Assembly (NCBI RefSeq): GCF_010907035.1
Contig: NZ_QUMK01000004.1
Span: 1-64,000 of the forward strand
Length of the DNA stretch: 64,000 nt
DNA from: Rhodopseudomonas sp. BR0M22
GTDB lineage: Bacteria; Pseudomonadota; Alphaproteobacteria; Rhizobiales; Xanthobacteraceae
Direction: 5' to 3'
Positions within the stretch are counted from its first letter, which is position 1; the number at the start of each line of letters is the position of its first letter. Both the position numbers and the translations under genes were made by a program. A model generated the notes under the pieces. That model was not told where the DNA came from, did not search any database, and was given only the letters and a program-made list of their open reading frames with translations. Positions 59,923 through 64,000 of this stretch are shown in pieces.

Positions 59923-61548
59923 ATGTCCGACACCGCTGTTCCGGCCGACGCGCCGTCCTCGACTCCGTTTTCGCTCGCCCATGAAGTGGCGCGACGGCGC
60001 ACCTTTGCGATCATTTCGCATCCTGACGCCGGCAAGACCACGCTGACCGAAAAGCTGCTGCTGTTCGGCGGCGCCATCAATCTCGCCGGTCAGGTCAAGG
60101 CCAAGGGCGAGCGCCGCAACACCCGCTCGGACTGGATGAAGATCGAGCGCGACCGCGGAATTTCGGTGGTCACCTCGGTGATGACCTTCGAGTTCGACGG
60201 GCTGGTGTTCAACCTGCTCGACACCCCGGGCCACGAGGACTTCTCGGAAGACACCTACCGGACGCTGACCGCGGTCGATTCCGCCGTGATGGTGATCGAT
60301 GCCGCCAAGGGCATCGAGGCGCGCACGCGGAAGCTGTTCGAGGTCTGCCGGCTGCGCGACATTCCGATCATCACCTTCATCAACAAGATGGACCGCGAGA
60401 CCCGCGATATCTTCGATCTCTTGGACGAGATCGAGAAGACGCTGGCGCTCGACACCACGCCGATGACCTGGCCGGTCGGGCGCGGCCGCGACTTCCTCGG
60501 CACCTACGACGTGCTCGACGGCGGCGTGCGCCTGCTCGAAGGCGGCGGCGCCAAGACCGGCGCGGCCGAGCAGATCACCATCGAGGAACTCGGCAAGCGC
60601 CATCCCAATCTCGACGTCGCCGCGGTCAAGGAGGAGCTCGAGCTCGCCACCGAAGCCTGCAAGCCGTTCGATCTTGAGGCGTTTCGCGAAGGCCATCTGA
60701 CGCCGGTGTATTTCGGCTCGGCGCTGCGCAATTTCGGCGTCGGCGATTTGCTGCAGGGCCTCGGCCGCTACGCGCCGCCGCCGCGCGCGCAGGAAAGCAG
60801 CGCCCGCAAGGTCGAAGCCGACGAGCCGAAGATGAGCGCCTTCGTGTTCAAGATCCAGGCCAACATGGATCCGAACCACCGCGACCGGATCGCCTTCGCG
60901 CGGCTGTGCTCCGGCAAGCTGACCCGCGGCATGAAAGCCAAGCTGGTGCGCACCGGCAAGGCGATGCCGCTGTCGAGTCCGCAGTTCTTCTTCGCCCAGG
61001 ATCGCTCGGTGGCGGATGAAGCCTTCGCCGGCGACGTCGTCGGCATTCCCAACCACGGTAGCTTGCGGATCGGCGATACGCTGACCGAGGGTGAGGACGT
61101 CACCTTCGTCGGCGTGCCTTCCTTTGCGCCGGAAATCGTCCGCCGCGTCCGGCTGACCGATGCGATGAAGGCCAAGAAGCTGAAAGAGGCGCTGCAGCAG
61201 ATGTCGGAAGAGGGCGTCGTGCAGGTGTTCCGCCCGCGCGACGGTGCTCCGGCGCTGGTCGGCGTCGTCGGCCCGCTGCAGCTCGACGTGCTGAAAGCCC
61301 GGCTCGCCGCTGAGTATCAGTTGCCGGTCGATTTCGAAGTCTCCGAATTCCAGCTCGCGCGCTGGATCTCCTCCGACGACCGCAAGAAGCTCGAGACTTT
61401 CATCGCCAATAACGGCTCGTCGATCGCCGACGACGTCGACGGCGATCCGGTGTACCTCGCCAAGAACGAATTCTATCTCGGCTACACCAAAGACCGCGCC
61501 GAGGGCATCGTGTTCTCGGAGATCAAGGACGTGAAGAAGGCGGGGTGA
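59923..61548 (+). CDS. prfC: Peptide chain release factor 3
   Basis: A 541-residue GTPase that recycles RF1/RF2 from the ribosome after peptide release. The G motifs are SHPDAGKTTLTEKLL (about 32-46), LDTPGHEDFSEDTYRT (about 98-113), and FINKMDRETRD (about 149-159). Domains II and III follow; the late segment PLQLDVLKARLAAEYQLPVDFE (about 446-467, shown in part) matches RF3. The first 20 residues are an Ala/Pro-rich leader. It diverges from sugE. It has no operon partner; the downstream DNA is repeats and a gene-free region. Confidence 0.95.
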   Translation: MSDTAVPADAPSSTPFSLAHEVARRRTFAIISHPDAGKTTLTEKLLLFGGAINLAGQVKAKGERRNTRSDWMKIERDRGISVVTSVMTFEFDGLVFNLLDTPGHEDFSEDTYRTLTAVDSAVMVIDAAKGIEARTRKLFEVCRLRDIPIITFINKMDRETRDIFDLLDEIEKTLALDTTPMTWPVGRGRDFLGTYDVLDGGVRLLEGGGAKTGAAEQITIEELGKRHPNLDVAAVKEELELATEACKPFDLEAFREGHLTPVYFGSALRNFGVGDLLQGLGRYAPPPRAQESSARKVEADEPKMSAFVFKIQANMDPNHRDRIAFARLCSGKLTRGMKAKLVRTGKAMPLSSPQFFFAQDRSVADEAFAGDVVGIPNHGSLRIGDTLTEGEDVTFVGVPSFAPEIVRRVRLTDAMKAKKLKEALQQMSEEGVVQVFRPRDGAPALVGVVGPLQLDVLKARLAAEYQLPVDFEVSEFQLARWISSDDRKKLETFIANNGSSIADDVDGDPVYLAKNEFYLGYTKDRAEGIVFSEIKDVKKAG

Positions 61549-61689: not shown

Positions 61690-62346
61690 TAATCAATCCT
61701 GTCAAACAGCCACACCTCCGCATCCTCGCGGCGCAATGCGCCCGAGCTTTGCCCGAAGAGCCGCCCCCAAGTGAGGGGCGGCGGCGCGCCGCAAGACGCG
61801 GCGTTGGTCGTGTCGCGATCCGGCCTTCGCCCGCGCGAGGGGCGAAGATCGCGAACCGCGCGTCGCCTTGCGGCGCGCCACCCCGGCGGTTTTTGGCTGA
61901 AGGACCGCTCTTCCGGGACCGAGCGAGCTTGCGGGCTTTCCCCGGCCTCTACTCGACCCGTCCAGCCTCTGAAGCGGCGGCCGCTCGTAGTAGCGGCGGA
62001 CGGTGACCCTCAACCTCCCGGGCGCGTGCTTGCGAGGCACGTCACGCAGGACGCCGTATCCCGCTCCGCCTCGCAAGCGCCCTCGAGAAGCGCCCCTCGC
62101 GAACGAGACATATAGGAATATAATCCATGTCCGCGGGAGCGTCAATCCGGTCGTGCGGATCTGGCGGACCTTAGCGCGATCGAAGAAAACGGCGCGAGCG
62201 AGCTGCACGAACGGCACCTGCATCGGCGATTGGCGAAGCCGCGCAGCCGATCAGAGGCCGATACTAGCCGCGAAGCGCGACTTTCAGGTCCGGAGAATGT
62301 ACTCAAGTCGATGTCAGGTAATGACCCGAAGCGGGCGCGGCACCAT
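61690..62346. other. GC-rich gene-free region with many stems
   Basis: About 650 bp without a convincing gene. A 173-codon frame runs on the minus strand (62223-61702) but it is Arg/Ala-rich, lacks a ribosome-binding site and matches no family, so I do not call it. The DNA has many short inverted repeats (for example GGGGCGGCGGCGCGCCGC near 61774-61791 and GGCGAAGATCGCGAAC), and changes from strongly GC-rich to mixed composition near 62100. It could be a structured RNA, a repeat element or decayed DNA. Confidence 0.45.
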
Positions 62347-62372
62347 TTCGAATCGTGTCGGGTGCGCCACCA
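62347..62372 (+). other. tRNA 3'-end fragment (attachment-site-like)
   Basis: The 26 bases hold TTCGAATCGTGTCGGG and then TGCGCCACCA, that is, the T-loop, the 3' half of the T stem and the acceptor strand with CCA of a tRNA, most like a tRNA-Arg with CGGGYGC acceptor. The preceding bases do not fold as the remaining tRNA body. Such 3' fragments are left by tRNA-targeting integrases, so this may be an att site of a genomic island. The intact gene is not in the window. Confidence 0.6.
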
Positions 62373-62621
62373 AATGGACAGCTCTCTCGGACTGACTTAA
62401 CCAGGGCCTGCGACTAGCTCAGAACGGCGCTCTCACACGCCGCTGTACCCCCGGCAGAACAGGCATCTGCATATAAGATCCAAGCTGTCCTTGGTTCTTG
62501 CCTAGAGGGCCGGTATGATCGGTCAGCGGCTTTACCCGAAATTTGCCAAGGAGAGCGCGCCGTGTTGAGTGGCGAGACTCCTTTGATGGACCATTGTCCT
62601 GTTGAGAGCTGACTGAAAGAA
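62373..62621. other. Leader region of the IetAS-like pair
   Basis: This 249-bp region has a lower GC content than the rest of the window and no gene. It should carry the promoter of the ATPase gene. I see no strong hairpin terminator or repeat; a CAAGGAGAG stretch near 62547-62555 has no start codon at a suitable distance other than a GTG that opens no long frame. Confidence 0.45.
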
Positions 62622-63623
62622 ATGCCAAGCGCTGACCAGGTAAAAGCACTTATTTCGTCCCTTACCGAAGGAGACGAAGGGCATTTCTTTGCCGTTGCTA
62701 TGCAAATTGCCGCGCATGAGGCCCGGATGGGTCATGGCAAGCTCGCCGAAGAGATTCGCGGCCTGATCGACAAGGCAAAGTCACGGCCCCGCTTCCCCGC
62801 TAAAAATACTATCCCGTTGGCTCGGCCTCGGGGAGAAGCCTCTGAGCTGTTGAGCGTCTCCTATCCGAACGTTCGCCTTGCCGACATGGTGCTTGCTCCG
62901 GCCACAAAGAATAAGCTGGAAAGAGTGGTCCGCGAACAGCGCGCCATTCAGATGATTCGCGGTAAAGGTCTTGCGCCGCGACGCAAAATGCTTCTCTCGG
63001 GAAAGCCGGGCACCGGCAAAACACTCACGGCTTCCGCTCTGGCAGGCGAACTCGGCTTGCCATTATTCGTGGTCCGCCTGGACGGCCTCATTACGAAGTT
63101 TATGGGGGAGACAGCCGCGAAGTTGCGGGTTGTCTTCGAAACAGTCGCTCAAACACGCGGCGTATACCTCTTCGACGAATTTGATAGCATCGGACCTGCC
63201 CGCGACCTGAGCAACGACGTGGGGGAGATCCGCCGCGTGGTGAACAGCTTCCTGCAGATGGTCGAGCAGGATCAATCCGAGAGCCTCATCGTTGCGGCGA
63301 CGAACCACGTCGGGATTTTGGATGAAGCCCTGTTTCGACGCTTCGATGACATTATCGAGTATGACCTCCCAGATTCTGCTCGTATTACCGAGACGCTCAA
63401 AGCAAGGCTCGCTGGGTTTCATACGACCAAAGACGGATGGCTGAAGCTCGCGAGAATTGCGCGTGGATTAAGTTTTGCTGATATTACCAAGGCATCCGAA
63501 GATGCCGTAAAAGAGGCCCTCATCAACGGCGATACGGCCGTAACGCAGGCTCTGGTTGCACAGGCACTTCAAGACCGAAAGACGTCAGTTACCAAAACAG
63601 TTAGTTCAAAGAAAAAACGTTAA
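62622..63623 (+). CDS. ietA: AAA+ ATPase, IetA-like (anti-phage defence)
   Basis: A 333-residue AAA+ ATPase. Walker A is LLSGKPGTGKTLTA (about 124-137), Walker B is VYLFDEFDSIG (about 180-190), sensor 1 is VAATNH, and FRRFDDIIEY supplies the arginine finger. The N-terminal 100 residues are helical and have no named domain. Size, order and the following subtilase-type gene fit IetA of the IetAS system, an ATPase-protease pair known from plasmid incompatibility and shown to block phages. GC content and codon use differ from neighbours, with TTT, ATT and AAA codons common. The gene ends 22 bp before its partner. An ATG in frame with this start is used; TTG/GTG alternatives are absent. Confidence 0.82.
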   Translation: MPSADQVKALISSLTEGDEGHFFAVAMQIAAHEARMGHGKLAEEIRGLIDKAKSRPRFPAKNTIPLARPRGEASELLSVSYPNVRLADMVLAPATKNKLERVVREQRAIQMIRGKGLAPRRKMLLSGKPGTGKTLTASALAGELGLPLFVVRLDGLITKFMGETAAKLRVVFETVAQTRGVYLFDEFDSIGPARDLSNDVGEIRRVVNSFLQMVEQDQSESLIVAATNHVGILDEALFRRFDDIIEYDLPDSARITETLKARLAGFHTTKDGWLKLARIARGLSFADITKASEDAVKEALINGDTAVTQALVAQALQDRKTSVTKTVSSKKKR

Positions 63624-63645
63624 ATTCATAGCATTTTGAGGCGGC

Positions 63646-64000
63646 ATGGCTCGGCACCCTCATCTGTTTGTCCAAGAAAATCCCGATCCTGTAAGGTTCA
63701 CCAGCCCAAGCTCCGGTCGCCAAGATCCGTTCTCGCTGCCGCCGAGAAACCGCGCCGAGCATGCACGTGCTCTCGCCACAAAGCTTGAAGCGATCGAGGG
63801 CACCTTAAAAGAACGTACCGAGGAGCAGAGGGCATTCGGGTTGGACGAAGGCTTCGGAATTTACCTGACGTTCCAGAGCGAACCGAATTTCGAATTGAAG
63901 TTCGAAAGCCTCGATGTTTCCAAAAGCGGTATTGAGCTTTGCAATCTCAAACTGACAGCCGACAATCGCGTCCAGGCGACCGTCTATGTGCCCGACGGCA
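63646..64000 (+). CDS. ietS: Putative subtilase-like protease, IetS-like (partial, 5' end)
   Basis: The gene starts with ATG at 63646 and runs off the window after 118 codons. The visible part starts MARHPHLFVQENPDPVRFTS and includes RNRAEHARALATKLEAIE (about 38-55) and YLTFQSEPNFELKFESLD (about 78-95). This N-terminal pattern (HLF...P, RxxHAxxLxxxLE, YLxFESxPxFEL) is the prodomain-like region found ahead of the subtilisin-type catalytic domain in IetS proteins. The catalytic Asp/His/Ser set is outside the window, so the identification rests on this region and on the adjacent AAA+ gene. It probably is the effector of the defence system. Confidence 0.72.
   Translation, partial: MARHPHLFVQENPDPVRFTSPSSGRQDPFSLPPRNRAEHARALATKLEAIEGTLKERTEEQRAFGLDEGFGIYLTFQSEPNFELKFESLDVSKSGIELCNLKLTADNRVQATVYVPDG

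Follow-up and report, generated by a model that had tools for sequence, protein, structure and literature searches.

The two genes at the right edge of the window, by which we mean the whole 64,000-nucleotide stretch analysed (C104:1-64000), form a complete, divergent module of predicted IetAS type, in which an AAA+ ATPase (IetA) is followed by a subtilase (IetS). The find is ordinary but sound. The pair lies in a variable stretch behind prfC, which it probably reached by horizontal transfer. With it, an IetAS-type system is confirmed for a bacterium of the Rhodopseudomonas group, and the family gains a divergent branch scoring under the curated NCBI cut-offs. The genome consists of 5.29 Mb in 159 contigs, and this contig runs on past position 64000. 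IetAS was reportedly first described as a defence system by Gao et al. in 2020; no published account of the present pair was found among the literature matches listed, subscription papers lying mostly outside that search.

The gene pair and its assignment

The following features of the pair were located in the window:

62622-63623, + strand: IetA-type AAA+ ATPase, 333 aa, recognised by PADLOC IetA, Pfam AAA and its motifs
63000-63023, + strand: Walker A motif GKPGTGKT, IetA residues 127-134, read from the translation; the lysine and its neighbours are invariant in the alignment
63646-64000, + strand: IetS-type subtilase, first 118 residues, recognised from the contig continuation, Peptidase_S8, PADLOC IetS and the triad

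IetA matched the PADLOC IetA model at 1.2e-73 over residues 4-327 and Pfam AAA at 5.1e-29, and the top PDB relatives retrieved by sequence search were Cdc48/p97-type ATPases. The initial annotation had described an AAA+ ATPase with full Walker A, Walker B, sensor 1 and arginine finger; all of these are present (GKPGTGKT, LFDEFD, ATNH and LFRRFD, respectively) and conserved in five close relatives. The GKT of Walker A, the DE of Walker B and the sensor-1 Asn are kept in 16/16 distinct IetA sequences. A pore loop of the form K/R-F/L/Y-MGE, which marks an AAA protein as polypeptide-threading, occurs in 13/16, with SFLGE or SRLGE in L006-L008. For all motif counts, L047 and L056, which come from the same genome as L017, and L048 and L057, from that of L021, were each counted once with it. 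The N-terminal 75 residues were searched for a known domain without success: the top PDB match, a calcium-binding protein at E 0.018, is one that we do not believe. The predicted structure of IetA (window plus five relatives) had a mean pLDDT of 52.0, too low for use.

The second gene had been placed 22 bp downstream, and its ORF indeed opens at 63646 on the same strand after a gap of 22 bp and is still open at the window edge. On the contig it is complete, ending at position 66138 and encoding 830 aa (contig ORF reading). Its 118 in-window residues matched no PADLOC or Pfam model, so the identity of IetS is not demonstrable from the window alone: the IetS-type call, originally made on this N-terminal part, was right, as the whole contig gene with its subtilase domain shows. 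The full protein matched Pfam Peptidase_S8 at 9.2e-53 (residues 281-596) and, in the PADLOC run that had been proposed, IetS at 1.6e-29 (residues 267-821), the first 266 residues lying beyond the best match. A search of the contig past 64000 for the catalytic triad, proposed likewise, was also successful. Asp288, His322 and Ser552, which we take to be the subtilase triad, are present, together with Asn432, presumably the oxyanion residue. All four are invariant in 6/6 close sequences and in the 13/13 distinct sequences that span the four positions; this count omits L005, L006 and L007, which end ahead of the Ser column and keep the Asp, His and Asn. No IetS match was found for L008. A search of IetS against PDB sequences gave nothing at E<=1, and structure prediction for a close relative of IetS, from L017 together with four others, reached a mean pLDDT of 36.7, too low for use.

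The pair is assigned to the broad IetAS family in the PADLOC sense, on matches that rest on E-values and not on PADLOC's own cut-offs. It resembles the IetAS anti-phage system in that an AAA+ ATPase lies directly upstream of an S8 subtilase, with both models significant. In contrast, the NCBIfam models IteA and IteS (NF042959, NF042956) scored 200.8 of 510 bits and 67.3 of 900 bits, without reaching the curated cut-offs. Because both scores are far under these equivalog cut-offs, the pair was not filed as IteA/IteS equivalogs and is read as a divergent branch. A simple promoter and terminator scan found no sigma-70-like promoter and eight terminator-like sites, where shuffled sequences gave 5.0 +/- 2.2.

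The variable interval behind prfC

The setting of the pair is described by three further features:

59923-61548, + strand: conserved gene to the left of the site, of prfC type (by eye; peptide chain release factor 3), at 91-100% identity in 16/16 genus genomes
62199-62337, no strand: left cargo flank, from blastn and the junction alignment; the matching DNA adjoins the extra SRPBCC gene copy in G005 and G012
62338-64000, continuing to contig position 66410, no strand: low-GC inserted cargo segment of 4073 bp (~4.07 kb), from the breaks in flanking homology and the low GC

The lower GC of the pair, already pointed out in the initial annotation, was borne out in 500-base windows (0.52-0.60 over the pair vs 0.61-0.70 in the flanks). 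We compared the site with fifteen congeners, one genome per species (loci L023-L037). Matches to the flanks end at ~62327-62337 and restart at 66411-66412 in G005, G006, G007 and G012, with different DNA in between. No blastn match to 62338-66410 was found at the same site in any congener (0/15), the G014 contig ending ~4.1 kb past prfC. With prfC in 16/16 genomes and the pair matched at the site in none of the congeners, this is not a house-keeping pair of the site. An IetA relative of 33-43% identity is present at other loci in four congeners.

The prfC-SRPBCC site varies more than the DNA around it, and its cargo is often small and of defence type. In collinear chains over ~24 kb, the interval (C104:61548-66940) differs in length by >500 bp from 13/14 relatives, G014 being left out for its short contig; the exception, G004, has an interval of similar length but different genes. 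Next in variability comes a place at 59.36 kb, with such differences in 4/14 relatives, followed by places at 50.3, 50.7, 52.5, 54.4, 66.9 and 69.2 kb with 2/14 each. This control is local to the ~24 kb and carries no genome-wide rank. A defence, TA or HEPN-type model was matched in the site cargo of 7/15 congeners. The cargo was as follows:

G002: SIR2_2 protein, PADLOC PDC-S25 at 1.1e-74
G004: AAA_21 protein, its OLD-like TOPRIM match below threshold; top PADLOC match AriA at 2.5e-20
G012: ABC-3C set (MC6, CTD10, DUF2326), PDC-M68B at 7.3e-166
G005, G009 and G010: Gp49/HTH_37 pair, presumably of TA type; a PADLOC search of the G005 pair gave no match
G015: HEPN match at 23.8 bits, barely above the cut-off of 22 bits
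G011: HTH_37 protein, its partner not recognised
G006: DUF4238 protein and a sub-threshold DUF5677 match
G007: transposase (by eye) and a 480-aa protein with no Pfam match
G013: NmrA protein
G001 and G003: ~0.37 kb at the site, SRPBCC gene absent
G008: no defence-type genes seen (by eye)
G014: cargo not judged

No integrase or replicon was recognised by eye among the cargo ORFs of the present segment. To its right lie SRPBCC and TPR genes (Pfam). The suggestion that more defence genes might follow further right found no support: none was recognised (SRPBCC and TPR by Pfam, the rest by eye), and by eye the contig beyond these genes, to position 90000, holds ordinary-looking genes, with no recognised defence island.

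We tentatively propose, at slightly less than even chances, that single small defence or TA modules lacking an integrase are exchanged in the prfC-SRPBCC interval of Rhodopseudomonas. One cargo would replace another while the junctions stay fixed, perhaps through homologous recombination in the conserved flanks and in the SRPBCC duplicate, with the IetAS branch as one passenger. The SRPBCC duplication itself could drive such an exchange by homologous recombination. The literature matches listed, mostly without subscription papers, contained no description of a prfC-adjacent defence exchange site in Rhodopseudomonas. The data point to one short chromosomal interval where further small defence modules of the genus could be sought.

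Several smaller observations were made on the congener loci. The SRPBCC gene is found twice, around the cargo, in G005 and G012 (L024 1856-2295, L027 6423-6862), and in G004 128 bp of the gene recur (L023 2849-2976). Two cargo proteins, at L024 2505-3695 (- strand, 397 aa) and L026 2229-3668 (- strand, 480 aa), matched no Pfam model, and the 397-aa protein had no PADLOC match either.

Linkage, mechanism and alternative explanations

A scan of public genomes gave six IetS loci, five of them complete at 61-74% identity with IetA directly upstream in 5/5; the sixth, L022, is a C-terminal IetS fragment only. Among 296 family genomes, IetS was matched at E<=1e-20 in 25 (13/47 genera) and IetA at E<=1e-35 in 44 (18/47 genera). 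Long IetS matches were defined as those with at least 700 aligned residues (7/31 rows were shorter and were left out of the count); in 23/24 cases IetA is matched immediately before them, on the same strand. The 24th, G112 C17, begins at a contig end; at the end of a different contig of G112, an N-terminal IetS piece adjoins IetA, and this piece is one of the seven short rows. Three of the others lie next to an IetA match (G097, G011 and G002), and G009 C2, G292 C59, which has a stop, and G292 C71 have no IetA match nearby. IetS relatives were present in 2/50,697 phage records.

The fragment at L022 6001-6820 (R. palustris 2.1.18; the same as G009 C2:165733-166359) consists of the last 209 residues of IetS, without IetA and at another locus. 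Its DNA is 97.6% identical to that of the present pair over 765 bp, while between G009 and this genome prfC is 91.5%, another core gene 91.1% and a third region 81.1% identical. The fragment is thus closer than the core genes compared, and the simplest reading of this short stretch would be an exchange between the species.

We consider it likely that IetA restrains IetS, a toxic protease, until infection or module loss frees it, limiting phage spread. IetS would be a subtilase-family serine protease that is toxic once free, and IetA a threading-type AAA+ ATPase holding it inactive, probably by ATP-dependent binding or remodelling. Infection or loss of the module would disturb IetA and release IetS, which could then cleave essential proteins, leading to growth arrest and limiting the spread of the phage. 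The analysis itself shows gene order, domains, catalytic residues, tight linkage and patchy presence. The toxin role of the subtilase and the antitoxin role of the AAA protein are published for relatives, and we infer the anti-phage action of this copy, its trigger and substrates, and the mode by which IetA restrains IetS. Points against this reading are the scores far under the NCBIfam cut-offs, the 266 residues of IetS beyond the best PADLOC match, the negative promoter scan, the poor structure models and two published results described below, on post-segregational killing with sgiAT and on lysogens in P. aeruginosa.

Further close parallels are AAA/subtilase TA systems, and the tightly linked order with the antitoxin upstream, as in pTiC58, sgiAT and TA132/3, is found here in 5/5 and 23/24 cases. 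The IetS/IetA pair of pTiC58 (Yamamoto et al. 2009), which we compared by description only, is plasmid-borne and reported for plasmid stability and incompatibility. In mycoplasma TA132/3, an AAA-ATPase of 353 aa is described as neutralising a toxic subtilisin-like protease of 757 aa (PMC8562856); the host is distant and this comparison, too, is by description only. The sgiAT pair of SGI1 likewise joins a subtilisin-type toxin to an AAA-ATPase antitoxin, every SgiT homologue adjoining a SgiA homologue, and with its own promoter the pair gave no post-segregational killing (PMC5006074). It sits on an integrative mobilisable island (PMC5006074), whereas no integrase was recognised by eye with the pair described here.

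As for defence, one study of a P. aeruginosa collection found a statistical association between IetAS and resistance to phages; an attempt there to obtain lysogens of the IetAS-bearing phage failed, leaving the link a statistical one (PMC11878078). Among its mutation-based escape entries, a review table lists ietAS in the row of functional phage proteins (PMC10286901). Since the IetAS mechanism is called unknown or yet to be described in two articles (PMC11878078, PMC9958689), an intact natural pair could be used as a test case.

The pair might instead be an addiction module only, stabilising its own DNA as its pTiC58 and SGI1 relatives are reported to do, with no dedicated anti-phage role. 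The published tests of the SGI1 and mycoplasma pairs are TA and stability tests (PMC5006074, PMC8562856), and sgiAT is counted among the stability modules of integrative elements. IetS relatives also occur in 482/72,556 plasmid records, all at <60% identity, 336 of the 482 being predicted conjugative. However, the same site in relatives carries other defence-type genes, and a small chromosomal segment with no integrase or replicon recognised by eye leaves little to stabilise, which argues against addiction only; we regard this explanation as unlikely.

A regulated house-keeping or stress protease, in which IetA would feed selected cell proteins to IetS with no toxin behaviour, would fit the resemblance of IetA to Cdc48/p97-type threading ATPases and the pore loop kept in most sequences, but it is quite improbable given the patchy presence (25/296 genomes), the lack of any match at the site in the fifteen congeners and the toxicity of relatives described in two reports (PMC8562856, PMC5006074). 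That this copy is decaying and inactive is harder still to credit: IetS fragments lacking IetA do exist in relatives (once in G009, twice in G292), but here both frames are open and the motifs intact, and dN/dS (NG86), computable in 3/6 comparisons, is 0.078-0.095 in these, with dS saturated. A toxic protease held in check by IetA is the reading that we retain as likely.

Repeats and non-coding DNA near the junctions

The tRNA-derived fragment that the initial annotation had placed next to the pair found no support and was rejected. ARAGORN reported no tRNA, either in the window or in L002 and L003. An Rfam search of 6.5 kb was negative at E<=1, as was one for tRNA across 62320-62640 at E<=10. 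Elsewhere in the genome the tRNA-like stretch has no good copy (best other match E 1.4), and its predicted folding is not better than that of shuffled sequences (z -0.56). The two ends of the cargo form a candidate inverted repeat of 24 nt with 71% complementarity; it was one of 72 such pairs in the region, with its left end unconserved in relatives, and a terminal repeat is therefore not claimed. A 21-base motif at the right end occurs once or twice in 5/7 genomes and is absent from 2/7, and so is not an abundant repeat.

Finally, a non-coding element of ~430 bp lies beside prfC at window positions 61700-62130. It had no Rfam match. Several relatives share it in the same place behind prfC, and four other contigs of this genome carry partial copies of 67-87% identity.
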